Source: Polymorphum gilvum SL003B-26A1 (lineage in GTDB: Bacteria > Pseudomonadota > Alphaproteobacteria > Rhizobiales > Stappiaceae). Taken from it: a stretch of DNA of 64,000 nt. Under the pieces are notes generated by a model that made no database searches, was not told the DNA's origin, and saw only the letters and a program-made list of their open reading frames with translations. Location: the NCBI RefSeq assembly GCF_000192745.1, contig NC_015259.1:821001-885000 (forward strand). The letters run 5' to 3'. Shown here piece by piece: positions 2,301 through 31,831 of this stretch. Position numbers and translations under genes: made by a program. Every line of letters begins with the position of its first letter. The stretch's first letter is position 1.

Positions 2301-2314
2301 CGCTCGTCTCCCGT

Positions 2315-3289: not shown

Positions 3290-3312
3290 CAGGAACCGTT
3301 CCGGGGTTCGGT

Positions 3313-3344: not shown

Positions 3345-3359
3345 CGGGGTCTGGCGGGG

Positions 3360-14151: not shown

Positions 14152-14449
14152 GGCGCAGGGGTCCTTCGCTCTGGAAAACAGGTCGGTGCGTCGGGCCATA
14201 TCAAACGATGACGGAGACCGGCGCAAGGCCGGCAATGGACGGCAGGGTACGCTCCGCATCCGTCCGGCGCTCGTGTTGACCGATCTGCCCGGGTGCGCCA
14301 GTGTTCCGGATCGGTCTGCGGAGGAAAACCAATGAGATCATCACCTTGGGTGCCGGGATGTGGATGGCGGGGAATGGCATTGGGTCCCGATTGCGTGCCG
14401 GCTCGATGAAGCGGAATTCCGATGCCGCCGTTGAGGGCCGTGTTGTCCC

Positions 14450-14959
14450 ATGACGGCCGCGTTCCTGCGCCTCACCGTCCGGCTGGCCTGGGTCTCGGCC
14501 GTGCTCTTCGTGATGGCGGGGGCGCTGCTGGCCTGTGACCTGCTGGCCAGACGGTTGCCGGTCGGGCCGGTTGCCTGGGCGGCGGACCTGGCGCAGCTGT
14601 GCCTGGTCTGGGGAACATTGCTCGCCATGGCTTGGCTGCTCGGGGCCCGGCGGCATATCGCTGTCGACGTCCTGGTTGCGCTGCTGAGCGCGCAGCAACG
14701 CCGCTATACCGAGGCGTTCGCCATGCTGGTGGTGGCGCTGTTCAGCGCCGTGGTGGTCTGGCAGGGCTGGGCCATTGCAGTCGAGTCGATCTCTCGCGGC
14801 CCCGGGTCGGAAGCGGTACCTCATCTGCCGGCCTGGACCGCCGACCTGGCCGTCCCGTTCGGCTTCGCGCTGCTCTTCGTTCAGGCTCTGATCGAGGCGA
14901 AGCGGGCGCTGGCGGGCGAGCTCGACGCGCTTGCCAACGGGCCCGGGGCGCGGGAATGA
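14450..14959 (+). CDS. TRAP transporter small permease (DctQ family)
   Basis: Four-helix inner-membrane subunit of a TRAP importer, 169 aa. Helices fall at about residues 10-30, 43-63, 85-110 and 128-150. The RRHIAVDVLV block after helix 2 is the typical DctQ motif. Its stop overlaps the large-subunit start by four bases (ATGA), so the two are translationally coupled. No periplasmic DctP receptor gene lies next to it, so the ligand cannot be guessed; the receptor must be encoded elsewhere. Confidence 0.88.
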   Translation: MTAAFLRLTVRLAWVSAVLFVMAGALLACDLLARRLPVGPVAWAADLAQLCLVWGTLLAMAWLLGARRHIAVDVLVALLSAQQRRYTEAFAMLVVALFSAVVVWQGWAIAVESISRGPGSEAVPHLPAWTADLAVPFGFALLFVQALIEAKRALAGELDALANGPGARE

Positions 14960-16227
14960 CTGCGACGGCACTCCTCGCGGGGCTGTTCGCCCTGCTGCTG
15001 TTGCGCGTGCCCGTTGCCTTCGCCCTCGGCGGACTCGGCCTCGCCATGCTGGTCGCCGCCGGTGCGTCGCCGCTTGCCGTGCCGCAGACGGTGCTGTCGA
15101 CTCTGGACGGATCTCTGCTGCTGTCGGTGCCGCTCTTCCTGCTGATGTCGAACACCCTGCTCAAGGCCGGAGTCGGGCGGGACCTGTTCGCCGCCGCCCA
15201 TGCCTGGGTAGGTCATTGGCCGGGCGGTGTCGCCCTGGCGACGATCCTGTCCTGCGCGGTGTTTGCCGCTGTTTCCGGCTCGTCCGTCGCGACGGCGGCG
15301 ACCATCGGCACGGCGGCGATGCCGGAGATGATCTCGCGCGGCTACGAGCGGCGGTTCGTCTATGGCCTGCTGGCCGCAGTCGGCACGCTCGGCATCCTGA
15401 TCCCGCCATCGATCCCGATGATCGTCTACGGTTTCGTCACCGGCCAGCCGGTGATCGACCTGTTTCTCGCCGGCATCGGTCCGGGCCTGCTCCTGATCTG
15501 CCTGTTCGTTGCCTTTGCCATGCTCCACGCGCGCCGGTCCGGCGTCCGGCCGGGAGCGCCGGCCGCCTGGAACGAGCGCTCGCAGGCCAGCGTGCGGGCG
15601 CTGCCCTCGGTGGTTCTTGCAGCCGTCGTCATCGGTGTCCTCTATTCCGGGGCCGCGACACCGACGGAAGCGGCGGCCATCGGCTTTGCCGGAGCCCTGG
15701 TCGTCGCCGCCGGCGTACTGCGCTCTCTGAGCTGGAAGGGCCTGCGTGACTCCGTCTTCGAGAGCATGGCGACCACGGTTGCGATCCTGCTGGTCGTTTG
15801 CGGCGCCAGACTGTTCGGCGAGGCGATTACGCTCTACCGGATTCCGCAGGACATCGCCGCCTTCGTCTTCGATGCGGCATTCGGCCCGCTGGCCTTCCTG
15901 ATCGTCGTTTCGGCGGTGCTGCTGCTCGCGGGGCTGGTGCTCGAGGCGCTGTCGATGATGCTGATCGTGACGTTGGTGCTGCTGCCGTCGGCCCTCGCCA
16001 TGGGCTTCGATCCGGTCTGGTTCGGCGTCTACATGGTCGTTCTGGTCGAATGTGCCCTGATCACGCCGCCCGTCGGGCTCAATCTCTACGTCGTCCAGGC
16101 GCTCGCGCGGGTGCCGTTTGCCGACGTCGCGCGGGGCGTGCTGCCGTTTCTCGCCCTGATGCTGGCGACCGTTCTGGCCCTTCACGCCTGGCCGGGGCTG
16201 GCGCTCCATATCCCGCACAGGATGTAG
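14956..16227 (+). CDS. TRAP transporter large permease (DctM family)
   Basis: Twelve-helix transporter subunit, 423 aa, which uses a sodium or proton gradient to move the solute delivered by the receptor. Conserved blocks are SVPLFLLMSNTLLKAG near residue 60, FAAVSGSSVATAATIG, GTLGILIPPSIPMIVYG, and the C-terminal LITPPVGLNLYVVQ. The start at 14956 overlaps the DctQ stop. The open frame extends back to 14599 only as shadow. It pairs with the 14450-14959 product and is followed by a convergent gene 45 bases on. Confidence 0.9.
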   Translation: MTATALLAGLFALLLLRVPVAFALGGLGLAMLVAAGASPLAVPQTVLSTLDGSLLLSVPLFLLMSNTLLKAGVGRDLFAAAHAWVGHWPGGVALATILSCAVFAAVSGSSVATAATIGTAAMPEMISRGYERRFVYGLLAAVGTLGILIPPSIPMIVYGFVTGQPVIDLFLAGIGPGLLLICLFVAFAMLHARRSGVRPGAPAAWNERSQASVRALPSVVLAAVVIGVLYSGAATPTEAAAIGFAGALVVAAGVLRSLSWKGLRDSVFESMATTVAILLVVCGARLFGEAITLYRIPQDIAAFVFDAAFGPLAFLIVVSAVLLLAGLVLEALSMMLIVTLVLLPSALAMGFDPVWFGVYMVVLVECALITPPVGLNLYVVQALARVPFADVARGVLPFLALMLATVLALHAWPGLALHIPHRM

Positions 16228-16272: not shown

Positions 16273-17082
16273 TCACCCCTCGGGCGACCACAGGCGCTTG
16301 ATGTCGAAGGCATGCACGTCCTTCAGCAGCTCTACGAATTCGCGCGCGGCGTGGTCGAGCGAGGCCCTGCCCTTGTCCGCGCTGGCGTTGGCGGCGTTGC
16401 CGAGCGCGCCCTTGGCGCCGAGGTCCTGCGCCTTCCAGCCGAACTGCTGCTGGCCGTGTCCGCGCAGATACTTGAACTCCTTGATGAAGTCCTGCTGGGC
16501 CGAGGTGAAGTCCTCGGCCAGCTCCATGCGCACCAGCTCCGGATGCAGGTGCAGCATGAGCGAGGTTTCGACGTCGCCGCCGTGGATGCCGTAGGTGAAT
16601 TCCTCGGACGGGAACAGGCCCTCGGGTTGGCCGAAGCGCGACCAGGCGGTGGCGGTAACCAGCATCTCGTGGGTGACCCGCAGCTCGCGCGCGACGATGT
16701 CGATGATCGGCACGTTGCCGCCGTGGGAGTTGATGATGACCAGCTTGCGGATGCCGGCGCGCGCGACGCTGTGGCCGATCTCGAGCCAGGCCCGGGTCAC
16801 CGTGTCCCAGGACAGGGTCAGGGTGCCGGGCGAGGAGATGTGCTCGTTCGACTTGCCGATCGCCTGCACGGGCAGGAAGGTCGCCGGGATGTCGGCGGGC
16901 AGCATGTCGAGCGTGCGGCGCACCTGGCCTATCGCGATGGCTGTGTCGGTGAAGACCGGCAGGTGCGGGCCGTGCTGCTCGATCGCGGCGACGGGTAGAA
17001 CGGCGATCCAGTCCTTCACGGACGGATCGGCGAAGTCGAGCGTGGTCATCTCATGCCAGTAGCGGAGCGGAAGGGCGGTCAT
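16273..17082 (-). CDS. Creatininase-family amidohydrolase
   Basis: Metal-dependent cyclic-amide hydrolase, 269 aa. The metal and catalytic landmarks of the family are present: VLPVAAIEQHGPHLPVFTD near residue 35 (Glu, His, Asp), INSHGGN near residue 122 and GIHGGDVETS with a further His/Glu. Members include creatininase, the riboflavin-pathway enzyme ArfB and the mycofactocin maturase MftE, so the substrate cannot be read from sequence. The neighbours (an MFS carrier and an orphan TRAP pair) do not settle it. Start at 17082 with GAGG upstream. Transcribed divergently from the MFS gene. Confidence 0.88.
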   Translation of the reverse strand: MTALPLRYWHEMTTLDFADPSVKDWIAVLPVAAIEQHGPHLPVFTDTAIAIGQVRRTLDMLPADIPATFLPVQAIGKSNEHISSPGTLTLSWDTVTRAWLEIGHSVARAGIRKLVIINSHGGNVPIIDIVARELRVTHEMLVTATAWSRFGQPEGLFPSEEFTYGIHGGDVETSLMLHLHPELVRMELAEDFTSAQQDFIKEFKYLRGHGQQQFGWKAQDLGAKGALGNAANASADKGRASLDHAAREFVELLKDVHAFDIKRLWSPEG

Positions 17083-17302
17083 GGGAACCTCGTGCGTTGG
17101 CAATTTTCCGGCACCTTACCGGCAGCTGGCCGGCACGTCATGCCCGTTCTGTCGGCACTGCAATCGGTCCGTGTATGACGTTCTGAACGGGCGGTCTGCC
17201 GGCGCCTGCTTGCCAAGGCGGCGAAATCCGGTCAGAAAGTTCCCGGTCGCAAAGCCCGGCTCGGCCTGCTCGGTTTTCATTCAGCCCTTCGGTTTTTCCT
17301 TC

Positions 17303-19372: not shown

Positions 19373-20716
19373 TTACAGGCTCTCCAGGAAGCGTCGTGCC
19401 GCCTGGCCGTGCTCGTGGCGCAGACTGGCGACGTCGATGCCGGTCGGCAGTCCGTCCTCGACCTTCCAGTCGCCGCCGACCATGACCCGGTCGGCGGCGT
19501 GGGCGCCGCACAGGACAAGGGCGGCGATCGGGTCGCCGGCGCCGGAGAAGCGCAGTTCGTCGAGGGTGTAGAAGGCCATGTCGGCCATCCTGCCGACCTT
19601 GATGGCGCCGATGTCGTCGCGGCCGAGGCAGCGGGCGGAGCCTTCCGTGGCCCAGCGGAAGGCGTCGAAATGAGTGACCGAGGCGGCGTCGTAGGTCAGG
19701 CGGTTGATCATCAGGGCGTGGCGCACGCTTTCGATCAGGTTGGAGTTGTCGTTCGACGCCGAGCCGTCGACGCCCAGCCCGACCGGCGAGCCAGCCGCCT
19801 CCAGTTCCCTGGTCCGGCACTGGCCGGAGGCAAGCACCATGTTGGAGGTAGGGCAGTGGCAGACGCCGACGCAGGCATGGCCGAGGCGCCTCACCTCGTC
19901 GTCGTTGAAATGGATGCCGTGCGCCAGCCACACCCGTTCGTTCAGCCAGCCGCACTCCTCCAGATAGTCGACCGGTCGGCATTTGAAATGCTCAAGGCAG
20001 TAGGCGTCCTCGTCAAGGGTTTCGCCGAGGTGCGTATGAAGGCGGCAGTCGTATTTCTCGGCCAGCGTCACGCTGTCGCGCATCAGACGCTTGGTAACGG
20101 TGAACGGCGCGCAGGGGGCGAGCGCGACCTGCAGCATCGCGCCTTTCGACCGGTCATGGTAGCGCGACAGCACCCGCTCGCAGTCGGCGAGGATGGTGTC
20201 CTCGTCCTGCACCACCGCGTCGGGCGGCAGGCCGCCGTCCTTCTGGGACAGGTTCATCGAGCCGCGCGTCAGCGTCATGCGGACGCCGACCCGCATCGCC
20301 TCCTCGGCCTGGATGTCCATGGCGCTCTCCAGGCCGGCCGGATACAGGTAATGGTGGTCGGAGGCCGCCGTGCAGCCGGACATCAGCAGTTCTGTCAGCG
20401 CCAGGCGCGTGCCGAGGCGGAAATTCTCCGGCGTGACGTTGCGCGCCCAGATCGGATAGAGCGCGTTGAGCCAGGGAAACAGTTCCTTGTTGATGGCTTG
20501 GGGATGGGCGCGCGTCAGGGTCTGGAAGAAGTGGTGATGCGTGTTGACGAGGCCGGGAATGATGACGTGTCTTGAGGCGTCGAAGCTCCGGTCGACCGGC
20601 AGCATCGGTTCTTTGCCCGAGGCCACCAGTTCGACGATGACGCCGTCCTCGACGACCACGCCGCGTTCCGCGCCCTCGGCCAGGATGGCGATCGGATCCT
20701 TGATCCACATGCGCAT
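19373..20716 (-). CDS. 8-oxoguanine deaminase (amidohydrolase superfamily)
   Basis: Cytoplasmic zinc hydrolase expected to convert 8-oxoguanine to urate and ammonia, 447 aa. The metal site is built from NTHHHFFQTLTRAHP (residues about 58-72), HTHLGET near residue 228, LAHGIHF near 267 and GVDGSASNDN near 317. The N-terminal stretch through ELFPWLNALYPIW is highly characteristic of bacterial 8-oxoguanine deaminases rather than TrzN/AtzB s-triazine hydrolases, which share the fold. It lies about 3.6 kb before an operon for uptake and deamination of another heterocyclic nitrogen compound, so it may belong to the same nitrogen-salvage function. Confidence 0.87.
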   Translation of the reverse strand: MRMWIKDPIAILAEGAERGVVVEDGVIVELVASGKEPMLPVDRSFDASRHVIIPGLVNTHHHFFQTLTRAHPQAINKELFPWLNALYPIWARNVTPENFRLGTRLALTELLMSGCTAASDHHYLYPAGLESAMDIQAEEAMRVGVRMTLTRGSMNLSQKDGGLPPDAVVQDEDTILADCERVLSRYHDRSKGAMLQVALAPCAPFTVTKRLMRDSVTLAEKYDCRLHTHLGETLDEDAYCLEHFKCRPVDYLEECGWLNERVWLAHGIHFNDDEVRRLGHACVGVCHCPTSNMVLASGQCRTRELEAAGSPVGLGVDGSASNDNSNLIESVRHALMINRLTYDAASVTHFDAFRWATEGSARCLGRDDIGAIKVGRMADMAFYTLDELRFSGAGDPIAALVLCGAHAADRVMVGGDWKVEDGLPTGIDVASLRHEHGQAARRFLESL

Positions 20717-20917: not shown

Positions 20918-21937
20918 TCACACAAGGGCTTCGAGGCGGTTCGCGGCGTCTGGCAGCCGGGACAGCGTCCGCTCGATCCGCTCCCGCCAGCGCGCGCCAC
21001 GCGCCTGTGCCTCCGCAAAGGCTTCGGCCAGATCGTCAGGCCGGTCCTCCGACAGGACCTCGATGAGGAAATCGGCCTGCATGCGGTCCTTGTAGGCCTT
21101 CAGGCTGTCGGCTCCTTCTAGCCGGCGGTCGGCCACGATGAGCTTGTGGATGGCGAAACGCTCCGGTCTCGGAATCTGAACCAGCACGCCGCTGCGGTAC
21201 AGGACTGCGGCCGGGATCGGATCGGCGATCAGGTAATTCAGGTAGTGGAGGGATTGCGCCGTCACGCGGAGGGCTGCCAAGGGCCGCAAATCTTCGCTTT
21301 CGGCGAAAGACGGCGTGAGGAATTCGACCAGCGTGTTGCTGCGGGTCTGACGCCAGCGCCAGACGCTGCCCTTGTGCAGGCTTGGCACCGCCTCGAAGTC
21401 GAAGTCCGCCAATACATCCTGCGCCGGCGGCTCCACGACATCCTGCAGGACCAGCGACAATCGTTCAAAACTCACGATGTCGACGTCGTCCGTCGATGCC
21501 GATTGGTCGAAACCGTATCTGACGCCAAGTTCCCCTTCGTAAAGGCGAAAGGCGTGGGTGCCGACGACGGTGCCGCCGAGGCGGAACACGCCGGCCGCGG
21601 CCATGGCGGACAGGAGGCTGCCCGTTGCACCGTCGGTCCCAAGAAAGCGTTCCGCACGCAGCAGACGGACCAGGCGGGAGCGGTGCGCGCGGCGTTCCGC
21701 GGCCCTGGCGCGAAGGTCCGCGTGGCGTTTTAACCGTGCTCTCAGGGGGGCGCTGTCTTCGCCGATGTAGCGCTTGCGGACGTCCGATCCGACACGGAAG
21801 GTGTCATACCAATAGTGTTTTCCATTCCTCTCGACGCGGGTAGGCGTCCCGCGTATCTCGGCGACTTCGTCGTCGAGAAGCGACCGGAGCAAATCGTTGT
21901 AGGCAGCATGGGCCGTCGTCGAGTGTCGTTCGAACAT
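20918..21937 (-). CDS. Nucleotidyltransferase-fold protein (GSU2403-like)
   Basis: 339 aa. A basic helical N-terminus (residues about 1-90) precedes a nucleotidyltransferase core: GTVVGTHAFRLYEG then STDDVDIVSF, where the DxD pair would bind metal. Residues about 250-265 (RPERFAIHKLIV) resemble the helical region found after such cores. I place it with the GSU2403-type nucleotidyltransferases; its substrate (nucleotide, protein or tRNA) is unknown. Relatives of this fold occur in toxin-antitoxin and defence contexts, but no partner gene is adjacent here. Its promoter carries two matched palindromes, suggesting tight control. Stops at 20918. Confidence 0.75.
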   Translation of the reverse strand: MFERHSTTAHAAYNDLLRSLLDDEVAEIRGTPTRVERNGKHYWYDTFRVGSDVRKRYIGEDSAPLRARLKRHADLRARAAERRAHRSRLVRLLRAERFLGTDGATGSLLSAMAAAGVFRLGGTVVGTHAFRLYEGELGVRYGFDQSASTDDVDIVSFERLSLVLQDVVEPPAQDVLADFDFEAVPSLHKGSVWRWRQTRSNTLVEFLTPSFAESEDLRPLAALRVTAQSLHYLNYLIADPIPAAVLYRSGVLVQIPRPERFAIHKLIVADRRLEGADSLKAYKDRMQADFLIEVLSEDRPDDLAEAFAEAQARGARWRERIERTLSRLPDAANRLEALV

Positions 21938-21952
21938 TGTGTAACCAGCCTT

Positions 21953-22033
21953 TGTTCAACAGAATATTTTTTTGTTGAACATCAGGCAAGCGTCATGCTC
22001 AACGAAAGAAATTTTTGTTGAGCATGACGCTTG
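21953..22033 (-). promoter_or_regulatory. Promoter with two matched palindromic operators upstream of the nucleotidyltransferase-fold gene
   Basis: An AT-rich island in GC-rich DNA. Palindrome 1: TGTTCAAC (21953-21960) and GTTGAACA (21974-21981). Palindrome 2: a perfect 17-base arm CAAGCGTCATGCTCAAC (21987-22003) and its complement at 22017-22033. Both share the core TGYTCAAC-N13-GTTGARCA with centres 43 bases apart. Reading the minus strand, a -35 TTGCCT (21984-21989) and -10 TATTCT (21961-21966) lie 17 bases apart, so palindrome 1 surrounds the -10 element. This is the layout of two repressor sites on a promoter. There is no U-run, so neither is a convincing terminator. Confidence 0.65.
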
Positions 22034-22060
22034 TCATCCGTTTCCGACTGGCTGCTCGGC

Positions 22061-23515
22061 CTAATCATAGATTGCGTAGTGAAGGTCGAGCGTCGCCGGT
22101 CCGTCCCAGGGAATACTGACGCTCCCTTCCGCTCTGGGCTTGCGATCCTGTGGCAGCAGGACGGTCTGGCCGGCGCGCCAGACGGCGAGGATGCCGTAGG
22201 TCTCGATGTCCCGTTCGCCTATCCAGGGCGAGAAGTCGTGGTTCCAGTCGAACAGGACCGACGGACTGTCGTCGCTGCCGAGGCTGACGAGGCAGGAGAT
22301 CCAGCCGTCGCCGCCGACGAAGACCAGTGGCTTGCCGGTCTTGTCGCGCCAGATCCGGGTCATTTCCGCGCCGATCTCGGCCATCGGATAGCCGATGCGG
22401 GGCATCTTGCGGTCAAATGCGGTTGCGACCGGCACCTGCAGCGCATAGGCGAGGGAAAACCCGGCGACGAGCGCGAAGCAGCCGGCCAGCAGCCGTCCGG
22501 CGTCGGCCTCGCCCAGGCGCGAACGGATCAAGGCGGTCACGAAGAGCCCCGAGGTGGCGAACATGGGTGCCCCCCACATGTCCTTGACCCCCGTGTTGCC
22601 CGTGAGGGCGACAAGCGCGGTGAAAAGAGCGGGGCCGAAGGTGGCGATCGCGAGAAAGCGCAGGGCACCGGCAGGCGCGACGGCGGCCGGTGCAGCCCGG
22701 CGCCAGGGCAACAGGCCGAGCGCCAGCGGTAACAGCATCGGCAGATGGTCTGCGGCCTGGGTCAGGACGAAGTCGAACGCTCGCCACGGAGAGCCGCTTT
22801 CGAGAGCGCTGCGTTCGCGTGCATAGGCGATCGGCAGGAAATCGGACTCGATCAGCCAGAGGAGATGCGGAAGCGCCAGCACGACGGCCAGGATTGCGCC
22901 GAGCCAGGGACCCGGCGAACGTAAAGCCGGGCGAAGCCGCGGATCCGCCAGCACCCACAGGCCGAACACGGCGAACTGAACGAGGACCGAGTATTTCGCA
23001 TAGAGGCCAATGCCGGCGATCAGGCCGAGCGCGAGCCAGGGAAAGAGCCGTCGAGGGGTGTCGTGGATCAGGGAGAAGACAAAGAACGCGGCCGCCCACA
23101 GCGGCATCTGGACGACGTTGTGGTTGAATTCCGGAGTCGGCCAGGAAAAGTAGTAGACGCCCGCCAGCAGGGCCGTGCCGATGACCGCATCACGCTCGCC
23201 GAGCAGGCGCCGTCCGAGCAGGAAGACGAACAGGTAGGTCAGCGCGATGAAGATCTGGCTGAGCAGCAGCGGACCCCAGATCGGCCCGCCGAGGCCGAGC
23301 CGGGCGATCTCCAGCAGCCAGGCCGGCAGCGGCGGGTGCTTGTAGTAGCCGAGCTGCCATTCCTGGCCCCAGACGATCAGGTTGGCAACGTCGAGGGCGG
23401 GTGCCGAACTGGCGAGGCCCGGGAGCACGGTCCACAGGACGATCTGGCTCAGGCAGAAAAGGGCGAGCATATCCCGCGGACGGGCGGATGCCAGCGCCCC
23501 CAGCGTTCGCAACAT
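22061..23515 (-). CDS. Glycosyltransferase family 39-like membrane protein (PMT/ArnT type)
   Basis: Polytopic inner-membrane glycosyltransferase, 484 aa, with about 10-12 helices. The first periplasmic loop holds LDVANLIVWGQEWQLGYYKHPPLPAWLLE, in which the acidic residue and the YYKHPPL motif match GT-C enzymes that use polyprenyl-phosphate sugars. A soluble C-terminal segment starts near residue 370. It may glycosylate lipid A, another lipid or an envelope polymer. The ATG at 23515 gives a family-like N-terminus; the frame extends upstream to 23572 without support. Tail-to-head with the nucleotidyltransferase gene, with the operator region between. Confidence 0.87.
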   Translation of the reverse strand: MLRTLGALASARPRDMLALFCLSQIVLWTVLPGLASSAPALDVANLIVWGQEWQLGYYKHPPLPAWLLEIARLGLGGPIWGPLLLSQIFIALTYLFVFLLGRRLLGERDAVIGTALLAGVYYFSWPTPEFNHNVVQMPLWAAAFFVFSLIHDTPRRLFPWLALGLIAGIGLYAKYSVLVQFAVFGLWVLADPRLRPALRSPGPWLGAILAVVLALPHLLWLIESDFLPIAYARERSALESGSPWRAFDFVLTQAADHLPMLLPLALGLLPWRRAAPAAVAPAGALRFLAIATFGPALFTALVALTGNTGVKDMWGAPMFATSGLFVTALIRSRLGEADAGRLLAGCFALVAGFSLAYALQVPVATAFDRKMPRIGYPMAEIGAEMTRIWRDKTGKPLVFVGGDGWISCLVSLGSDDSPSVLFDWNHDFSPWIGERDIETYGILAVWRAGQTVLLPQDRKPRAEGSVSIPWDGPATLDLHYAIYD

Positions 23516-23617
23516 CAAGCGGTCCCTCCCGTTGTCCCGCCGCCTTATGCGACCTCGCCGAAGCGAATGCAAGCAGGCGGGCAGGGACGGGGAAGCAGGG
23601 AAGGGGAAGTCGAATGC

Positions 23618-24010
23618 TCAGAGCGCGGCCTTGGCAGCGATCACTTCGATCTCGACGACGAATTCCTCGCGCGCGAATCCCGACACGATCATCAGCGTCG
23701 AGGCCGGTGGCGGCGTGCCGGCAAACTCGTCGCGTACTCTCATGTAGCCCGGCAGGTGTTCGCGGCCGGTGACGAAGGCATTGATCCGGACGATGTTCTC
23801 GAAGCCCATGCCGGCATCGGCGAGAATCGCTCCGACGTTCTGGAAGCACAGGCGCGCCTGGGCTTCGACCCCCTCGGGAACGGTGTCATTGGCGTCAATG
23901 CCAAGCTGGCCGGAGGCGAAGACGAGCCGGTGGTCGGCCGGCACTTCGACGGCGTGGCTGTAGCGGGCGAACGGCCGGCGAATGGTGAGGGGAGTGAGGG
24001 CACGGGACAT
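23618..24010 (-). CDS. RidA family protein (Rid/YjgF/YER057c/UK114)
   Basis: Small trimeric cytoplasmic protein, 130 aa. Landmarks are SHAVEVPADHRLVFASGQLG, QARLCFQNVGAILADAGMGFENIVRINAFVT and VEIEVIAA. The position usually held by the catalytic Arg of RidA proper appears as PASTLMIVSGFAREEF, so this is probably a Rid2/Rid-like subgroup whose imine deaminase activity is uncertain. It diverges from the sigma-54 operon at 24357, whose deaminase and oxidase could yield reactive imines; that gives a plausible but unproven reason for its position. Start ATG 24010. Confidence 0.88.
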   Translation of the reverse strand: MSRALTPLTIRRPFARYSHAVEVPADHRLVFASGQLGIDANDTVPEGVEAQARLCFQNVGAILADAGMGFENIVRINAFVTGREHLPGYMRVRDEFAGTPPPASTLMIVSGFAREEFVVEIEVIAAKAAL

Positions 24011-24356
24011 GGAAACACTCGCATATTTCCGGATTGGGCTGGATCTCCAGACGCTAGGTGCCCAGGAGCTTCGTCGCAAGCTTCAAGGGTGGCGAAGCTT
24101 GTGGCGCTTGCCGTTTTTTTGTGCACATTATCGGGCCGACATGCGCCGTTTCGGGGGGCGGATCCAGGCGGTGCGGATGCGATCGCGAAGGCGAATCGGG
24201 GCGGGTCGCGTGACTACCGGCCGGGCGGGTAGTCCTGCCGGGGCGTCTGGCACATGGCTTGCAAAAACGATCTGGCGTGATTGCCTGAACCGCTCCCAGG
24301 GCCTGAGGAGGCACAGCGGCAGAGCTTTGAAAAAGCATATGGAGGCGGAAGACAAC
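24011..24356. other. Intergenic regulatory region between RidA and the NMT1-type operon
   Basis: A 346-base divergent region without a gene. It holds an inverted repeat CAAGCTTC (24077-24084) / GAAGCTTG (24094-24101) with a 9-base spacer, a T-run followed by GTGCAC near 24114-24126 and the sigma-54 promoter at 24248-24262. I looked for a TPP riboswitch, common before THI5-type genes, and saw no convincing thi-box. The inverted repeat may be an operator for either gene. Confidence 0.5.
24248..24262 (+). promoter_or_regulatory. Sigma-54 (RpoN) promoter, -24/-12 element
   Basis: The sequence TGGCAC-ATGGC-TTGC matches the sigma-54 consensus TGGCAC-N5-TTGC at every conserved base, with GG (24249-24250) and GC (24261-24262) separated by ten bases. 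Transcription should begin near 24274, about 80 bases before the binding-protein ATG at 24357. Sigma-54 promoters need an enhancer-binding activator such as NtrC, which would tie the operon to nitrogen limitation. No clear NtrC palindrome was found upstream. Confidence 0.8.
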
Positions 24357-25358
24357 ATGCGTATCCTTTCCACCCTTGGCATCCTCGCCGCGGCGCTCGC
24401 CGCTTCGACCAGCGCTCAGGCTCTGGACGAAGTGAAGTTCGGCACCAACTGGCTCGCCCAGGCTGAGCACGGCGGCTACTATCAGGCCGTCGCCGACGGC
24501 ACCTACGAGAAGTACGGCCTGAAGGTTGAGATCGTGCAGGGCGGTCCGCAGGCGGCCAACCGCGCCCTACTGCTCGCCGGCAAGATCCAGTTCTACATGG
24601 CCGGCAACATGCTGCAGCCGCTCAATGCACTGGCCGAGGACATCCCGGTCATCGAGGTAGCAGCGATCTTCCAGAAGGATCCGCAGGTGCTGATTGCGCA
24701 TCCGGACCAGGGCCTGGAAAAGTTCGAAGACCTCGCCAAACTGCCGACGATCTTCATGGGCAAGGATGGCTTTGCCTCCTATTTCCAGTGGATGAAGTCG
24801 GCCTACGAGGGCTTCCGCGACGAGCAGTACAAGCCCTATACCTTCAACCCGGGTCCATTCCTCGCCGACAAGCAGTCCGCGCAGCAGGGCTACATCACCT
24901 CCGAGCCCTTCGCCATCGAGAAGGAAGGCGGTATCAAGCCGAAGCTGTTCCTGCTCGCCGACGCCGGCTTCGAGACCTATTCGACCATGATCGAGGGTCG
25001 CAAGGATTTCGTCGAGGCCAACAAGGACCTGACCCAGCGCTTCGTCGATGCCACCATCGAGGGCTGGTACACTTATCTCTATGGCGATAACGCGGCCGCC
25101 AACGAGCTGATCAAGAAAGACAACCCCGAAATGACCGACGACCAGATCGCGTTCTCGATCGAGACGATGAAGTCGTTCGGTCTGGTCGAATCGGGCGAGG
25201 CCCTGGAAAAGGGCATCGGCTGCATGACCGACGAGAAGCAGAGCGCCTTCTATGACGCGATGGTCAAGGCCGGCGTCGTCAAGGAAGGCATCGACATCAC
25301 CAAGGTCTACACCACCGAGTTCGTCTGCAAGGGCGTCGGGATGAACCTGAAGAAGTAA
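24357..25358 (+). CDS. NMT1/THI5-like ABC transporter substrate-binding protein
   Basis: Periplasmic receptor, 333 aa. The signal peptide MRILSTLGILAAALAAS ends near AQA-L (residue 23). The mature N-terminus VKFGTNWLAQAEHGGYYQAVADG, followed by KYGLKVEIVQGGP, is the NMT1/THI5 signature; these proteins usually bind pyrimidine-like or other small nitrogen-rich molecules. GGAGG at 24341-24345 fixes the start at 24357. First gene of the sigma-54 operon; a strong hairpin separates it from the ATPase gene. The downstream cytosine-deaminase-like and FAD enzymes probably act on the imported ligand. Confidence 0.92.
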   Translation: MRILSTLGILAAALAASTSAQALDEVKFGTNWLAQAEHGGYYQAVADGTYEKYGLKVEIVQGGPQAANRALLLAGKIQFYMAGNMLQPLNALAEDIPVIEVAAIFQKDPQVLIAHPDQGLEKFEDLAKLPTIFMGKDGFASYFQWMKSAYEGFRDEQYKPYTFNPGPFLADKQSAQQGYITSEPFAIEKEGGIKPKLFLLADAGFETYSTMIEGRKDFVEANKDLTQRFVDATIEGWYTYLYGDNAAANELIKKDNPEMTDDQIAFSIETMKSFGLVESGEALEKGIGCMTDEKQSAFYDAMVKAGVVKEGIDITKVYTTEFVCKGVGMNLKK

Positions 25359-25373
25359 GTCGTCCGGCTTGCC

Positions 25374-25407
25374 CCCTCGGAGCCGGACTTGTTGCCGGCT
25401 CCGAGGG
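25374..25407 (+). promoter_or_regulatory. Intercistronic hairpin covering the ATPase gene's ribosome-binding site
   Basis: A perfect 13-base-pair stem, CCCTCGGAGCCGG (25374-25386) with CCGGCTCCGAGGG (25395-25407), around an 8-base loop. No U-run follows. The 3' arm contains GAGGG, the only plausible Shine-Dalgarno for the GTG start at 25415, so the stem may both protect the binding-protein message and restrain ATPase translation. Confidence 0.6.
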
Positions 25408-25414
25408 CTGTGCC

Positions 25415-26299
25415 GTGCGTTCCTGCGACCAGAAAAAGGCAGACTTCAGGGTGTCGAGTCCAACCAATTCCGTGCCCGGCCCGGCCCAGGGGCCGGCCGT
25501 GACGCCGTCGGCGCGTTCCGGCCGTCCGCTTGTCCGGCTCGAGGGCGTTTCCAAGATCTTCTCCAACGGCACCGTCGCGCTTCAGGACATGACGCTCGAC
25601 GTGCGCCAGGGGGAATTCATCAGCCTGCTCGGCCCGTCCGGCTGCGGCAAGTCGACCGTGCTGCGCATCATCGCCGGCCTCGGGGATCCGTCGGCCGGAT
25701 CGATCGACTGGCCGACCTCCGGTCACGACGCCTCCGGCAAGGCCCATCCCGAGATCAGCTTCGTGTTCCAGGAACCGACCCTGATGCCTTGGGCGACGGT
25801 GTTCGGCAACGTCTGGCTGCCGCTGCGGCTGAAGGGCGTGTCGAAAGCTGCCGCCCGCGACGAGGTGCTCGCTGCGTTGCAGATGGTCGGCCTGGACAAG
25901 TTCGCCGACGCCTATCCGCGCGAACTGTCCGGCGGGATGAAGATGCGCGTGTCGATCGCCCGGGCGCTGGTGACCCGGCCGAAGCTGCTGCTGATGGACG
26001 AGCCCTTCGCTGCGCTGGACGAGATCACCCGTTTCAAGCTGAACAACGACCTGCTGCACCTGTGGGAGAAATTCGGCTGGACCGTGATCTTCGTTACCCA
26101 TTCGGTGTTCGAGAGCGTCTACCTGTCCAACCGGATCGTGGTCATGGCCGCGCGCCCGGGCCGGGTCGTCAACGACATGGCCGTCGACGCGCCCTATCCG
26201 CGCGAGGAAGAGTTCCGCACCTCGTCCGTCTACAACGACTTCTGCCGGGAGGCGTCCGCCGCGCTGCATGCAGCCATGGACGTGAATGACCACCTATGA
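25415..26299 (+). CDS. ABC transporter ATP-binding protein (SsuB/TauB type)
   Basis: ATPase of the NMT1-type importer, 294 aa. Walker A GPSGCGKST (about residues 73-81), Q-loop FVFQEPTLMPW, signature LSGGMKMRVSIARAL, Walker B LLLMDEPFAALDE and the switch His in FVTHSVFES. GTG 25415 is taken as the start since GAGGG lies 7 bases upstream; a second in-frame GTG at 25451 is an alternative that would trim the Pro/Ala-rich, poorly conserved N-terminus. Its stop overlaps the permease start (ATGA). Confidence 0.9.
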   Translation: MRSCDQKKADFRVSSPTNSVPGPAQGPAVTPSARSGRPLVRLEGVSKIFSNGTVALQDMTLDVRQGEFISLLGPSGCGKSTVLRIIAGLGDPSAGSIDWPTSGHDASGKAHPEISFVFQEPTLMPWATVFGNVWLPLRLKGVSKAAARDEVLAALQMVGLDKFADAYPRELSGGMKMRVSIARALVTRPKLLLMDEPFAALDEITRFKLNNDLLHLWEKFGWTVIFVTHSVFESVYLSNRIVVMAARPGRVVNDMAVDAPYPREEEFRTSSVYNDFCREASAALHAAMDVNDHL

Positions 26300-27168
26300 C
26301 AGCGCTCGACACTGAAAAGGGCGTCGACGTGACGCCGGCCAAACTGGACGAACCGGCACCGATCGCACCGCGGGCCGAGGGACTCGGCGAGCGGCTGCTG
26401 AAGATCGCGGTGCCGCTGACGATGCTCGCCCTGCTGATCGTGGTGTGGGCCTGGTACGTCAGCGCCTACGACGTGCCCCACTACATCCTGCCAAGCCCGT
26501 CCCGGGTGCTGCAGTCGCTGATCGACGACTGGGGCACGCTGTCCGGCGCCCTGCTGATCACGCTCAAGATCACCTTGACGGCGCTCGGGATCGCCCTTGT
26601 CGGCGGCGTCGGCATCGCGATCCTGATGGCGCAGTCGCGCTGGATCGAACTGGCGCTCTATCCCTATGCCGTCATCCTGCAGGTGACGCCCATCGTCGCC
26701 ATTGCGCCGCTGATCCTGATCTATGCGCCGACCACCCAGGCGGCGCTGCTGATCTGCGCCTGGATCGTCGCCTTCTTCCCGATCCTGTCGAACACCACGC
26801 AGGGGCTGAAGTCGACCGATCACAATCTGCTCAACCTGTTCGAGCTCTACGGCGCCAGCCGCTGGCAGACGCTGATGCTGCTGAAGATCCCCAACGCGTT
26901 GCCCTATTTCTTGGCCGGATTGCGGATTGCCGGCGGCCTGGCGCTGATCGCGGCTGTCGTGGCGGAGTTCGCCGCCGGCTCGGCGGGCGCCCAGTCGGGC
27001 TTGGCCTACCGGTTGCTGGAATCCCAATTTCGTCTCAACATTCCCCGATTGTTCGCAGCGCTAATCCTGCTGTCGGTGACCGGCGTGGTGATCTTCTTCG
27101 TCACCAGCCTCATCTCGCATCTGCTGCTGCGCCGCTGGCACGAGAGTGCCCTGAAGCGGGAGAACTGA
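26296..27168 (+). CDS. ABC transporter permease (SsuC/NMT1-system type)
   Basis: Inner-membrane permease, 290 aa. After a cytoplasmic N-terminal tail of about 35 residues come six helices of the BPD_transp_1 domain. The coupling loop is LFELYGASRWQTLMLLKIPNALPYFLAGLRI, matching the EAA motif of SsuC-type permeases. Translationally coupled to the ATPase gene by a 4-base overlap and followed by the amidohydrolase gene with a single-base gap, so the transporter and the enzymes are clearly one transcription unit. Confidence 0.92.
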   Translation: MTALDTEKGVDVTPAKLDEPAPIAPRAEGLGERLLKIAVPLTMLALLIVVWAWYVSAYDVPHYILPSPSRVLQSLIDDWGTLSGALLITLKITLTALGIALVGGVGIAILMAQSRWIELALYPYAVILQVTPIVAIAPLILIYAPTTQAALLICAWIVAFFPILSNTTQGLKSTDHNLLNLFELYGASRWQTLMLLKIPNALPYFLAGLRIAGGLALIAAVVAEFAAGSAGAQSGLAYRLLESQFRLNIPRLFAALILLSVTGVVIFFVTSLISHLLLRRWHESALKREN

Positions 27169-27169
27169 G

Positions 27170-28519
27170 ATGGGCGCAGTCCTGACGCGCCCGCTCGCGG
27201 GCGAGGGCGTTCTCGCCAACGCCTCGGTTCCATCCTGCCTGCTGCCCGCGCCGCTCGGCGGCGGCGCGGCGGCGGCGCTGATTGCGGTCGATCTGGAGAT
27301 TTGCGGCGGGCGGTTGAGACGCATCGCGCCGGCCGGGACCCTCGCGGGGGACGGGCCGGCGGTGTTCGATCTCGATGCCGGCATGGTGCTGCCGACCCTT
27401 GTCGACATGCACACGCACCTCGACAAGGGGCACATCGCGCCGCGCAAGGCCAATCCGGACGGCACGTTCATGGGGGCGCTCGCCGCCGTCGGCGAGGACC
27501 GGGCGGCCAACTGGACCGCCGCGGACGTGCGCCGCCGCATGGAATTCGGCCTGCGCTGCGCCCATGCCCACGGCACGTCGCTGATCCGGACCCATATCGA
27601 CAGCCTGCCGCCGCAGGATGAGATCTCCTGGCCGGTTTTCAAGGAGATTCGCGCCGAATGGCGGGGCAGGATCGAGCTTCAGGGCTCCTGCCTGTTCGGC
27701 ATCGACCGGCTCGACCTCGATGGTGATTTCCTCGCGCGCATCGCGGACCGGGTCCGGGAGGCCGGCGGCATTCTCGGTGCCGTCACCTACATGATTCCTG
27801 GCATCGACGCGCATCTTGACGCGGTCTTTCAGGCGGCGATGGCGCGCGGTCTCGACCTCGACTTCCATGTCGACGAGACCGCCGATCCGGCCGCCGTCAC
27901 CCTGCGCCGCATCGCCGAGGCCGCGATCCGCAACCGCTTCGAGGGCCGGATCGTCTGCGGTCACTGCTGCTCGCTCGCCAACCAGGGCGCCGAGGAGGCC
28001 GACCGCACGCTCGATCTGGTGGCTGAGGCCGGGATCGGCGTCGTCTCGCTGCCGATGTGCAACATGTACCTGCAGGACCGTGTCGCGGGGCGTACGCCGC
28101 GCTGGCGCGGCGTGACCCTGCTGCACGAGATGAAGGCGCGCGGCATCCCGGTCGCAGTCGCCTCCGACAACACGCGTGATCCGTTCTATGCCTATGGCGA
28201 TCTCGATTTGATCGAGGTCTATGCGCAGGCGACGCGGATCCTGCATTTTGATCATCCGATCGCGGACTGGATCCGGACGGTGACGACCGCTCCGGCAGCG
28301 ATGCTGCGCCAGCCCGGCCACGGCCGGCTGGCGGAGGGGGCACCCGCCGACCTGATCCTGTTCCGGACGCGCACCTGGAGCGAGACGTTGTCACGTCCGC
28401 ACGGTCCTCGCGAGGTGTTGCGCGCCGGGTGCGCGATCGACCGCATCCTGCCCGACTACCGGGAACTCGACGACATCATGGTTCTTGCGTCTTCCGCAGC
28501 ACAAGGAGCAGCACAATGA
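27170..28519 (+). CDS. Cytosine-deaminase-like amidohydrolase (CodA family)
   Basis: Cytoplasmic metal-dependent deaminase or cyclic amidohydrolase, 449 aa. The metal site is DMHTHLDKGH (about residues 80-89), DFHVDETADP (about 228), CGHCCSLA (about 264) and the catalytic Asp in SDNTRDPFYAYGD (about 335). These match CodA. Cytosine is the archetype, but creatinine and other heterocycles are also deaminated by homologues. The compound is presumably what the coupled ABC system imports. Its stop overlaps the FAD-oxidoreductase start by four bases. Confidence 0.88.
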   Translation: MGAVLTRPLAGEGVLANASVPSCLLPAPLGGGAAAALIAVDLEICGGRLRRIAPAGTLAGDGPAVFDLDAGMVLPTLVDMHTHLDKGHIAPRKANPDGTFMGALAAVGEDRAANWTAADVRRRMEFGLRCAHAHGTSLIRTHIDSLPPQDEISWPVFKEIRAEWRGRIELQGSCLFGIDRLDLDGDFLARIADRVREAGGILGAVTYMIPGIDAHLDAVFQAAMARGLDLDFHVDETADPAAVTLRRIAEAAIRNRFEGRIVCGHCCSLANQGAEEADRTLDLVAEAGIGVVSLPMCNMYLQDRVAGRTPRWRGVTLLHEMKARGIPVAVASDNTRDPFYAYGDLDLIEVYAQATRILHFDHPIADWIRTVTTAPAAMLRQPGHGRLAEGAPADLILFRTRTWSETLSRPHGPREVLRAGCAIDRILPDYRELDDIMVLASSAAQGAAQ

Positions 28520-29922
28520 GCGCGCTCGACAGCCTCAAGGCCGATCTGTCCGGCCTGCAGATCGAGGACAATCCGCAGATCGTCAAACAGAAGAGCCGAG
28601 ATTTCTTCTGGTACTCGCCGGTTCTCAAGCAGCAACTCGACCATGTTACCGGCGACCTCGTGGTCACGCCGAAGTCCGAGGCCGAGGTGATCCGCGTCCT
28701 CAAGTCCTGCTACGCCCACGACGTGCCGGTCACCGTGCGCGGCGCCGGCACCGGCAACTACGGCCAGGCCATGCCGCTGTCGGGCGGCGTCATCTTGAAC
28801 CTTGCCGAACTCAACAAGGTCAAGGAGATCCGGCCGGGAGTCGTGGTCGCCGAGGCGGGCGCGATCATCTCCAAAATCGACGAGGAGACCCGGGCCCACT
28901 CGGGCCAGGAACTGCGCCTGCATCCCTCGACCTACCGGACCGCGACGATCGGCGGCTTCATCGCCGGCGGCTCGGGCGGCATCGGCTCGATCAACTGGGG
29001 CGGGCTGCGCGATCTCGGCAACGTCATCCGGCTCAGGGTGCTGACGCTGGAGGCGGAGCCGCGCGTCCTGGAGATGACCGGCGAGGACCTGCACAAGGTC
29101 ATGCATGCCTACGGCACCAACGGGGTCATCACCGAAGTGGAGATGCCGTTGACCGCCGCCTACGACTGGGTCGACGTCGTCGTCGGCTTCGATGCCTTCA
29201 TGGACGGCGTGCGTTTCGCCGATGCCGTCGGCAACCAGGACGGCCTGCTGCTGAAGGAACTGGCGCCGATCTCCGCGCCGCTGCCGCACGACTATTTCCT
29301 GCGCCACCAGAAATACATCCGCAAGGACCAGTCGGTGGTGGTGTGCATGGTGGCCCCCTTCGCCATGGACGCGTTCGCGGCCTTCGTCGGCCGTCAGCCG
29401 AAGGCCTCGATCCTGTACCGCTCGGATACGGTCGACGAGGACGCTAAGAAGGGCCTGCCGCCGGTCTACGAACTGGCGTGGAACCACACGACGCTGCGCG
29501 GCCTCAGGGTCGATCCGGCGATTACCTACCTGCAGGTGCTGTATCCGTTCCCGAACCATGTCGAGAAGGTGCGGATCATGACCGACCTGCTCGGCGACGA
29601 GGTGCCGGCCCATCTGGAGTTCGTGCGCTTCGACGGCAAGATCACCTGCTTCGGCCTGCCGGTCGTGCGCTACACCACCGAGGAACGGCTGAACGAGATC
29701 ATGCGGCTGCACGAGGAGAACGGCTGTCCGATCTTCAATCCGCACCGCTATACGCTGGAAGAGGGCGGCATGAAGCAGACCGACGACGTCCAGCTCGCCT
29801 TCAAGCGCGAGGCGGATCCGAAGGGCCTGCTCAACCCGGGCAAGATGATCGCCTGGGAGGATCCGAACTACGACTATTCGAGCGACAAGCTGTTTCTGTT
29901 CCCGGGCCTGAAACGGGCCTGA
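28516..29922 (+). CDS. FAD-binding oxidoreductase (FAD_binding_4), paralogue of 7000-8349
   Basis: Flavoenzyme, 468 aa, last of the tightly coupled operon. FAD-site motifs are TVRGAGTGNYGQAMPLSGG and TATIGGFIAGGSGGIGS, with LHPSTYRTAT between; the C-terminal LNPGKMI is family-typical. It has a 15-20 residue N-terminal extension compared with its paralogue. Given its place after an importer and a deaminase, it probably oxidises the deaminated ring product, but no substrate can be assigned from sequence. GGAG at 28505-28508 precedes the ATG at 28516. Confidence 0.87.
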   Translation: MSALDSLKADLSGLQIEDNPQIVKQKSRDFFWYSPVLKQQLDHVTGDLVVTPKSEAEVIRVLKSCYAHDVPVTVRGAGTGNYGQAMPLSGGVILNLAELNKVKEIRPGVVVAEAGAIISKIDEETRAHSGQELRLHPSTYRTATIGGFIAGGSGGIGSINWGGLRDLGNVIRLRVLTLEAEPRVLEMTGEDLHKVMHAYGTNGVITEVEMPLTAAYDWVDVVVGFDAFMDGVRFADAVGNQDGLLLKELAPISAPLPHDYFLRHQKYIRKDQSVVVCMVAPFAMDAFAAFVGRQPKASILYRSDTVDEDAKKGLPPVYELAWNHTTLRGLRVDPAITYLQVLYPFPNHVEKVRIMTDLLGDEVPAHLEFVRFDGKITCFGLPVVRYTTEERLNEIMRLHEENGCPIFNPHRYTLEEGGMKQTDDVQLAFKREADPKGLLNPGKMIAWEDPNYDYSSDKLFLFPGLKRA

Positions 29923-30025
29923 CATTTGACACATCGGGGGCGCCGGCCAGGCCGCCCGAAGGGATTGCACCCGCGAATCCTTCGGGCCGTCCCTTCCGCA
30001 TGCCCGCATGCCGGAGATGTTTTCC

Positions 30026-30607
30026 ATGCGCGTTCTGGTTCTTTTCGCCCACCCGGTCGAGACGAGTTTCGCCGCCGCCTTGCACCAGCGGGTCCTCGAC
30101 GGACTGAGGTCGGCGGGGCACGAGGTCGACGACTGCGACCTCTATGCCGAAGGCTTCGATCCGCGGCTGACCCGCGAGGAGCGGCTGGCCTACCATGACC
30201 TCGACATCAACCGGGCGAACGTCGCCTCCTACGTCGACCGGCTGCTCGCCGCCGAGGCCCTGGTGCTGGTGCACCCGGTGTGGAACTTCGGTCTGCCGGC
30301 GATCCTAAAGGGCTTCTTTGATCGGGTTTTCCTGCCCGGCGTGTCGTTCAAGATGAAGAATGGCAAGGTCGCGCCCAGCCTGCACAACATCCGCAAGCTG
30401 ACCGTGGTCACCACCTACGGCGGCACCCGCCTGCGCGCCTTCCTGGTCGGCGATCCGCCGCGCAAGATCGCGACACGGGTGCTGCGCGCGGTCATCAAGC
30501 CGGCCGCGCCGCTGTCCTACATGGCACTCTACGACATGAACCGTGCCACAGACGACGACCGCGCCGCCTTCCTCGGCAGGGTCGGAAAGGCGATGGAGCG
30601 GTTCTGA
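30026..30607 (+). CDS. NAD(P)H oxidoreductase, flavodoxin-like fold (Flavodoxin_2)
   Basis: Cytoplasmic FMN/FAD-dependent quinone or nitro reductase, 193 aa, of the KefF/NQO family. MRVLVLFAHPVETSF is the nucleotide-binding opening, and VHPVWNFGLPAILKGFFDRVFLPG is the diagnostic flavin-binding block. The ATG at 30026 has GGAG nine bases upstream; an in-frame ATG at 30008 is less well supported. It lies 104 bases after the FAD oxidoreductase gene and overlaps the start of its own paralogue, so it may be the end of the same operon or a second unit. Confidence 0.88.
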   Translation: MRVLVLFAHPVETSFAAALHQRVLDGLRSAGHEVDDCDLYAEGFDPRLTREERLAYHDLDINRANVASYVDRLLAAEALVLVHPVWNFGLPAILKGFFDRVFLPGVSFKMKNGKVAPSLHNIRKLTVVTTYGGTRLRAFLVGDPPRKIATRVLRAVIKPAAPLSYMALYDMNRATDDDRAAFLGRVGKAMERF

Positions 30608-31194
30608 TGCGCGCGCTGGTCGTCTATTGCCATCCCTGCGCGGAAAGCTTCAACGCGGCCGTACTCAGGACCGTCCTGGCGAGCCTGGAGGCTGCTGGCC
30701 ACGAAATCCGCCTGGTCGACCTCTATGCCGAAGGCTTCCAGCCGGCGATGAACGCCGAGGAGCGGCGCGGCTACCATGACCATGGCAGCAACGTCGAGCC
30801 GGTCAGGACACATGTCGAGAACATCCTGTGGTGCGAGATGCTGGTGTTCGTCTATCCGACCTGGTGGTTCGGCCTGCCGGCAATGCTGAAGGGCTGGCTC
30901 GATCGGGTTTGGGTGCCGCATGTCACCTTCGAGATGCCGACCGAGGCGAGCGGCATGCGTCCGCGCATGCAGCACATCCGCAAGATTGCCGTCGTGACCA
31001 CCTGCGGAGCGAGCTGGTGGGTGTCGAAACTGATCGGCGAGCCGGGGCGCAGGACGCTCCTGCGTGGCATGCGTGCCCTGTGCGCGCCGCGCTGCAGGAC
31101 GCTCTATCTTGCGCACTACAAGATGGACAGTTCGACCTCGGAGAGCAGATCCTGTTATCTTGCCATGGTGACGCGCAGGTTGAAACGGTTCTGA
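30607..31194 (+). CDS. NAD(P)H oxidoreductase, flavodoxin-like fold (second copy)
   Basis: 195-aa paralogue of the preceding protein: MRALVVYCHPCAESFN at the N-terminus, the shared DLYAEGFQP block and FVYPTWWFGLPAMLKGWLDRVWVPH for the flavin site. Start overlaps the upstream stop by one base (TGATG), so translation is coupled and a heterodimer is possible. It differs in several Cys residues near the C-terminus (LCAPRC). Probable role: two-electron reduction of quinones or another electrophile. Confidence 0.88.
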   Translation: MRALVVYCHPCAESFNAAVLRTVLASLEAAGHEIRLVDLYAEGFQPAMNAEERRGYHDHGSNVEPVRTHVENILWCEMLVFVYPTWWFGLPAMLKGWLDRVWVPHVTFEMPTEASGMRPRMQHIRKIAVVTTCGASWWVSKLIGEPGRRTLLRGMRALCAPRCRTLYLAHYKMDSSTSESRSCYLAMVTRRLKRF

Positions 31195-31315
31195 AATTGT
31201 ACGCCGGATGGTGCATCGTCATTCGACGGTTAAGCAAGCCGTCTACGGTTCCGGCGAATCGCGGTGCTGCGATGGCGCCGTCCGGATCGAGCGAACCTGT
31301 CGGAGGAATCCCGCC

Positions 31316-31831
31316 ATGGTGTTCAACTACAAGAAAAGCGTGACCTATCGTCTGCTGCAGGCGGCCAAGGCGCAGCGGGCGCGCTCGGGCGGCCATCTGA
31401 TGCGCATCGGTCTGCATCCGGGCCAGGAACTGGTGCTCAAGGTACTGGCCGACGCGGACGGGCGGACGATGAGCCAGTTGGCCCTGGCGCTCGGCGTCCA
31501 GCCGCCGACCGTGACCAAGATGGTGACCCGCCTGTCGGCGCAGGGGCTGGTCAGCCGCCAGGTGTCGGAGAGCGATGGGCGCCTGGCGCGGGTGTTCCTG
31601 ACCGAGGAAGGGCGGGGGCGCATCGGTGCCGTCGACAAGGCCTGGAAACGGCTGGAGAAGGACGCCATGGCCGGCCTCGACGACAAGGACCGCAAGAAGC
31701 TCCGCAAGCTGCTACGCCACGTCGAGCGCAACCTGTCGCTCGCCGCGCTCGACGAGCCGGATTCGGACGGCGAGGACGATATCGCCGCTGCGGCGGAAGC
31801 CACGACCGAGCCGGTCGCGTTGGAGGCGTGA
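31316..31831 (+). CDS. MarR-family transcriptional regulator
   Basis: Dimeric winged-helix repressor, 171 aa. The recognition region is MSQLALALGVQPPTVTKMVTRLSAQGLVSRQ, with the wing SESDGRLARVFLTEEGR. An acidic tail (residues about 150-171) is unusual for the family. GGAGG stands correctly upstream of the ATG at 31316. MarR proteins commonly sit beside the oxidoreductase genes they repress, releasing DNA on binding a phenolic or quinone-like ligand, so control of the two upstream reductases is plausible. Confidence 0.9.
   Translation: MVFNYKKSVTYRLLQAAKAQRARSGGHLMRIGLHPGQELVLKVLADADGRTMSQLALALGVQPPTVTKMVTRLSAQGLVSRQVSESDGRLARVFLTEEGRGRIGAVDKAWKRLEKDAMAGLDDKDRKKLRKLLRHVERNLSLAALDEPDSDGEDDIAAAAEATTEPVALEA

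Follow-up and report, generated by a model that had tools for sequence, protein, structure and literature searches.

The DNA analysed here, hereafter the window, is a 64,000-nucleotide stretch of Polymorphum gilvum SL003B-26A1 (contig NC_015259.1, positions 821,001 to 885,000). Its forward strand carries a five-gene operon (24357-29922) that, with a probability we put at roughly 0.6, scavenges nitrogen from pteridines under sigma-54 control, folate or folate/pterin breakdown products being the most likely source. This interpretation is built on sequence comparisons. The original prediction had read the same genes as a three-step pathway (import, deamination, oxidation) for a nitrogen heterocycle to which it gave no name. 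Import, deaminase and flavin enzyme genes do stand in one apparent transcription unit; however, a Rid protein, reductases and a hydrolase of the creatininase family are conserved as well, and the heterocycle is probably a pteridine or folate.

The five genes, and a divergent Rid gene, were all found where they had been described. The first encodes an NMT1/THI5-like substrate-binding protein (SBP; 24357-25358; PF09084, 79.9 bits against a cut-off of 20.5) and is followed by the genes for an ABC transporter ATPase (25415-26299; PF00005) and permease (26296-27168; PF00528), which bears out the NMT1-type importer proposed earlier. Matches of the SBP in the Protein Data Bank (PDB) are weak, among them 3ix1, a formyl-aminopyrimidine-binding protein (E 6e-5). 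The next gene specifies an amidohydrolase of CodA/AtzC fold, probably a pteridine deaminase (27170-28519), and the last an FAD enzyme (28516-29922; PF01565). The overlaps claimed for these genes hold for ATPase/permease and for amidohydrolase/FAD gene (4 bases in each case); the permease and amidohydrolase genes are 1 base apart, and a gap of 56 bases separates those of the SBP and the ATPase. Two Flavodoxin_2 NAD(P)H oxidoreductase genes (PF02525) lie downstream on the same strand, the first being the probable reductase partner of the FAD enzyme (30008-30607 and 30607-31194), and a MarR-family regulator gene (31208-31831; PF12802/PF01047) closes the array. The operon probably extends to 31194 or 31831, since Flavodoxin_2 homologues, mapped beside the FAD gene, were found in 77 of 80 related loci; a MarR homologue was found in 16. 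In Rhizobium johnstonii 3841, one Flavodoxin_2 gene overlaps the FAD gene.

The substrate assignment rests largely on the FAD enzyme. The protein matches PDB 6v42 with 745 bits (67.3% identity over 465 residues), as against 54 bits or less for the remaining solved relatives, and its predicted structure (mean pLDDT 76.7) aligns to 6v42 with a Z-score of 41.2 and an rmsd of 2.6 over 436 residues. The title of the entry reads “Crystal structure of the flavin oxygenase with cofactor bound involved in folate catabolism”. These findings suggest that the FAD protein is a probable orthologue of the 6V42 enzyme, and it is the title of this closest solved structure that makes pteridine/folate the probable substrate class. 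An FAD oxidoreductase had been predicted at this position, and a flavin enzyme it is; however, an oxygenase working with a reductase partner appears more likely than a simple oxidase. Flavodoxin_2 proteins are the reductase type in alphaproteobacterial clusters (L091, L122, L124-L126) and in a betaproteobacterial one (L127). The Pantoea and Klebsiella clusters carry an annotated PDR/VanB reductase, and no Flavodoxin_2 protein was found there. Such replacement of one reductase type by another suggests that the flavin enzyme requires an external electron donor.

The genes travel together. The related loci are the best 80 of 590 from one scan of named genomes, mostly Hyphomicrobiales, and were mapped by tblastn (matches of more than 33% identity over more than 50% of the query; some stretches are short). 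Gene counts are tblastn matches, fewer full reading frames having been extracted (for MarR, 11 versus 16). The amidohydrolase was found in all 80 loci, the SBP and Flavodoxin_2 in 77 each, Rid in 73 and the creatininase-family protein in 65; all five operon genes occur jointly in 77. A second survey covered 398 evenly drawn Pseudomonadota genomes, of which 32 match the FAD protein (E 1e-60) and 26 do so at 50% identity or more, P. gilvum itself included. Around the FAD genes of the other 25 (stretches of 18-19 kb; matches over more than 40% of the query), the amidohydrolase, the SBP and Flavodoxin_2 are each present in 24, Rid in 23 and the creatininase family in 20. Ten further stretches have more distant, paralogue-type FAD proteins (39-46% identical); the creatininase-family gene lies alongside in 9 of them, the amidohydrolase in 7, the SBP in 6 and Rid in 5. 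An Agrobacterium tumefaciens locus with a 42% identical paralogue (L130) combines creatininase-family, Rid, FAD, importer and 2-oxoglutarate (2OG) oxygenase genes without the amidohydrolase or a reductase. Annotated regions from alpha-, beta- and gammaproteobacteria share a set made up of the importer, a reductase, Rid and the amidohydrolase, FAD and creatininase-family enzymes. Near two Rhizobiaceae clusters (L091 and L122) are genes for a paoABC-type molybdenum oxidoreductase, possibly an extra pathway step; their proximity would fit pterin or aldehyde chemistry.

The amidohydrolase was originally described as a CodA-like deaminase. The fold agrees with this description, AtzC and CodA being the closest structures (Z 36-37), and the metal and catalytic residues (H81, H83, H233, E236, H265 and D333) are invariant in 87 of 87 relatives. 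What is not retained are the substrate residues of CodA, Gln156 and Asp314. The Asp314 position is occupied by Asn (Asn334) in all 87 sequences and the Gln156 position by Ile178 or another hydrophobic residue, also in all 87, although the latter column is alignment-dependent: the Gln falls in a gap when the alignment is made to the Klebsiella 5-methylcytosine deaminase. In addition, Arg336 (83/87) replaces CodA Phe316. These changes fit a different, perhaps acidic, substrate, and the “cytosine deaminase” label, which annotated relatives also carry as an automatic name, looks doubtful from the alignment. The label is nonetheless an argument for a pyrimidine pathway, in which a cytosine-like base or a thiamine pyrimidine would be imported, deaminated and opened by Rut-like oxidation with the help of Rid. 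The cut-off of the NCBIfam model behind the label is passed (NF005759, 627 bits against 403), the closest folds are those just named, and the binding protein is of NMT1/THI5 type. With the two CodA positions altered throughout the family, and with identity to CodA at only about 22% over the fold, we consider such a pathway the least probable of the alternatives weighed here. A further model, NF004636, was tried as a guide to the pterin deaminase Arad3529; the seven cluster amidohydrolases scanned with it fall below its cut-off.

Three genes on the opposite strand encode further candidate enzymes. The divergent Rid-family gene (23618-24013; PF01042, 80 bits against 27.3) had been named RidA. 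The gene is indeed there; however, its product has Ser at the position of Arg105, the catalytic residue of RidA (Rid1), in 82 of 82 sequences and in the same column of an alignment to a PDB UK114 protein. For this reason the name is misleading. The creatininase-family hydrolase gene (16273-17103; PF02633, 240 bits), a module member some 7 kb off the operon, yields a product that scores under the cut-off of all four NCBIfam models it met, three by a wide margin: 106.6 against 172, 90 against 235 (TIGR04448, creatininase), 51.9 against 245 and 27.3 against 180. The third gene (19373-20716) specifies an 8-oxoguanine deaminase-type amidohydrolase, as predicted, its 655 bits exceeding the 532 required by NCBIfam NF006055; we regard it as accessory. 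Were it the core enzyme, the system could be a pathway for nitrogen from purines or oxidised purines such as 8-oxoguanine, xanthine or urate, and its score, its position next door and its conservation in 20 of the 80 loci would speak for this. However, it was not found in the other 60 (some of which are short stretches), among the 35 stretches from sampled genomes only 2 have it, one at 34% identity, and the nearest solved relative of the FAD enzyme is linked to folate rather than to purines. A purine pathway thus seems improbable, if marginally less so than a pyrimidine one.

The sequence TGGCACATGGCTTGCA (24248-24263, + strand), whose 3′ end lies 93 bases ahead of the SBP start codon, has the GG at -24 and the GC at -12 of a sigma-54 promoter at fixed spacing. 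Its identification draws on sequence, genome pattern count and conservation. The element had been called consensus-perfect, which is accurate for TGGCAC-N5-TTGCA and slightly strong for the usual sigma-54 consensus, TGGCACG-N4-TTGCW, from which it departs by a single A for G. Exact matches to the former pattern number three in the 4.72-Mb genome, versus none to the reversed control pattern, and the genome encodes RpoN in single copy (PF04552, 232.7 bits). Regions of up to 300 bases upstream of the SBP gene were scanned for sites that preserve GG and GC and have no more than two, or no more than one, mismatches, in the 76 of 80 loci from which this gene was extracted. Sites were found in 47/76 at the looser and 41/76 at the stricter setting, against 8/445 and 0/445 upstream of six other genes and 2/76 and 0/76 on the reverse strand. 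As many of the loci are closely related, these counts do not represent independent events. The conserved sites keep the core and vary in the spacer, as expected of genuine sigma-54 sites. They occur in loci of Stappia, Roseibium (6/8), Pannonibacter, Mesorhizobium (22/22), Kaistia, Prosthecomicrobium, Bauldia, Breoghania and Inquilinus. From this pattern we infer that the operon depends on sigma-54.

The trigger is probably nitrogen limitation acting through NtrC. A possible NtrC-like dyad, TGCCGTTTTTTTGTGCA (24109-24125, + strand), starts 139 bases ahead of the -24 element and is the best match in the window to TGCAC-N7-GTGCA, with 2 mismatches. Among the 48 upstream stretches that carry a sigma-54 site (the window included, and the loci being interrelated), 23 have a dyad of this kind, versus 96 of 1335 random pieces; if the spacer is set to 5, 6, 8 or 9 in place of 7, between 6 and 12 of the 48 match at up to 2 mismatches. 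We take this enrichment as suggestive only. A second exact sigma-54 site in the genome stands at the head of another operon (L186 2055-13046; C2 about 2058054-2069045), which would agree with these sites being markers of nitrogen-scavenging genes in this genome. This operon comprises genes for a PnrA-like binding protein, permeases, a CN-hydrolase, a biuret amidohydrolase (431.8 bits against 370), an ABC ATPase, a second isochorismatase-type hydrolase, an AtzE-type amidohydrolase, a 5-FTHF cyclo-ligase-like protein and a GntR regulator, and probably serves the use of nitrogen from biuret or urea derivatives. Adjoining it is a 2OG-Fe(II) oxygenase gene (L010 1931-2899, - strand) whose product is 49-54% identical to the oxygenases that Sulfitobacter (L125) and Paroceanicella (L124) carry within their pteridine-type clusters. 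The third exact match (L008) was discarded as probably due to chance; it falls where a gene for a T2SSE-domain protein (type II/IV secretion ATPase) has its 5′ end.

A number of observations weigh against this picture, some concerning the promoter and others the chemistry. Sigma-54 control, though backed by a conserved site and by rpoN, is not universal: no site was seen in the Rhizobium, Ciceribacter, Neorhizobium, Agrobacterium, Peteryoungia, Pseudaminobacter and Labrenzia loci, in two of the eight Roseibium loci or in any of six annotated plasmid loci. In two site-less loci with annotation, those of R. johnstonii 3841 and of one A. tumefaciens plasmid, a LysR gene occupies the promoter position. 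The even sample gives sites in only 12 genomes at two mismatches or fewer and in 9 at one or fewer, of the 24 (among 25) in which the SBP gene was extracted, and a family of the same class (f17, L168-L174) gives 1 in 7. As to the chemistry, the folate link comes from a PDB title plus homology, and a literature search that covered few subscription journals found no paper naming 6V42. The exchange of reductases is not clean, one stretch (L177) matching both types and several with more distant FAD proteins matching neither. The creatininase-family gene, distant from the operon here, is missing from 5 of the 25 sampled genome stretches. Finally, no carboxypeptidase G or aminobenzoyl-glutamate genes are named in the annotated regions.

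With gene content, homology and promoter as described above, we infer substrate and reaction order as follows. Pteridines would enter through the SBP and its ABC transporter. The amidohydrolase would strip the pterin ring of its 2-amino group, releasing ammonia and leaving a lumazine-type product, and the FAD enzyme, with the Flavodoxin_2 NAD(P)H reductases as its electron donors, would oxygenate or oxidatively cleave the folate or pteridine; either of these two steps may come first. The oxidised ring might then be opened or trimmed by the creatininase-family hydrolase. The Rid protein may handle a reactive intermediate, by a mechanism unlike the classical Arg-dependent imine hydrolysis of RidA.

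Orthologues of the amidohydrolase and FAD genes map at 181246-183937 of plasmid pRlvA in Rhizobium leguminosarum UPM791, with one match each on the plasmid. In the accessible part of a study comparing UPM791 bacteroids from pea and lentil, Table 3 gives two pRlvA products, RLV_169 (“Cytosine deaminase like”) and RLV_170 (“Putative FAD-binding dehydrogenase”), as pea-specific (PMC7950203); beyond this listing, that part of the text does not comment on either. Judging by position and by the single match of each on pRlvA (the record is without annotation), the orthologues are probably these two proteins. One could argue from this that the module handles some other nitrogen heterocycle of plants or soil, such as a legume secondary metabolite, creatinine, a hydantoin or a triazine, through enzymes that have drifted from folate chemistry; the creatininase-family protein and the AtzC-like fold of the amidohydrolase would agree. 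Against it stand the 67% identity of the FAD protein to the folate enzyme, the score of the creatininase-family protein below the true creatininase cut-off and the occurrence of the module in seawater bacteria too, for example in Paroceanicella from the Mariana Trench. We judge it unlikely, although less so than the purine and pyrimidine pathways. A bolder form of the pteridine interpretation would have the genes constitute a complete, undescribed bacterial pathway that dismantles the pterin ring of folate for nitrogen, with a new creatininase subfamily opening the ring hydrolytically, a Rid protein acting without the catalytic Arg, and rhizobia using the module on host pteridines in pea nodules. 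Possible as it is, this ensemble strikes us as tentative and, taken whole, on the doubtful side. Little is known about the genes by which bacteria degrade folate and pterins, and the accessible part of one study calls the environmental degradation mechanism not fully understood (PMC9513972). If correct, the pteridine assignment would provide a testable gene set and promoter extending from Stappiaceae to root-nodule rhizobia, and would replace a doubtful automatic label.

Elsewhere in the window, a second FAD protein gene (7012-8349, + strand) encodes a product 41% identical to the operon enzyme. It was set aside as a member of the system, having neither an NMT1-type importer nor an amidohydrolase beside it. 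Its neighbours are a gene whose product combines 2Fe-2S ferredoxin and guanylate/adenylate cyclase domains (5169-7025, - strand), an ABC transporter of the SBP_bac_5 peptide type encoded on the opposite strand (about 1341-5063) and a protein without a Pfam match. Between the 8-oxoguanine deaminase-type and Rid genes lie a nucleotidyltransferase-domain gene (PF12281) and a PMT_2 glycosyltransferase-type gene (20918-23572, - strand); searched at the thresholds of the map (more than 33% identity, more than 50% of the query), the 80 related loci gave no homologue of either. Past the creatininase-family gene are genes for a TRAP transporter large permease (DctM; 14926-16227, + strand) and a D-2-hydroxyacid dehydrogenase (13189-14259, - strand).

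Among known systems, the flavin oxygenase of PDB entries 6V42 and 6V43 is akin to the FAD protein in sequence and fold. The operon, its importer and its sigma-54 control were not found in the literature searched, and 6V42 is known here by its entry title alone. The original prediction had known of no described pathway made up of just these three enzymatic steps. Indeed, our search returned no description of the cluster or of its sigma-54 control, which is weak evidence of absence given the journals covered; the FAD step, however, had been recognised before. The Rut pyrimidine pathway is nitrogen-controlled and combines a flavin oxygenase, a reductase and a Rid protein, a combination found here as well. 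Unlike in Rut, the FAD enzyme here is of the GlcD/lactate-dehydrogenase type, and the Rid protein, besides lacking the Arg, scores only 22 bits with the RutC model (cut-off 169). Cyanurate and biuret operons (AtzDEF, BiuH) scavenge nitrogen from N-heterocycles, and the AtzC-like amidohydrolase fold recalls them; in P. gilvum, however, BiuH and AtzE-type genes are outside this operon, elsewhere behind their own exact sigma-54 site. Pterin deaminases provide a likeness by description, deamination of a pterin-type ring; one of them, Arad3529, is reportedly proven. Another is the 399-residue pterin deaminase of Variovorax F1, which when cloned deaminates folate and pteroate and which, in the accessible part of the report, was studied alongside carboxypeptidase G and not a flavin oxygenase (PMC9513972). 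The same source describes, in V. paradoxus, conserved “endoribonuclease” genes downstream of predicted deaminase genes; we read them as Rid-type. The arrangement resembles that of the Pantoea cluster, where a 399-residue amidohydrolase is followed by Rid. What was known before is a flavin enzyme solved and named for folate catabolism; what the analysis adds is the reading of the cluster as a probable nitrogen-controlled heterocycle operon, with a pteridine as its probable substrate.

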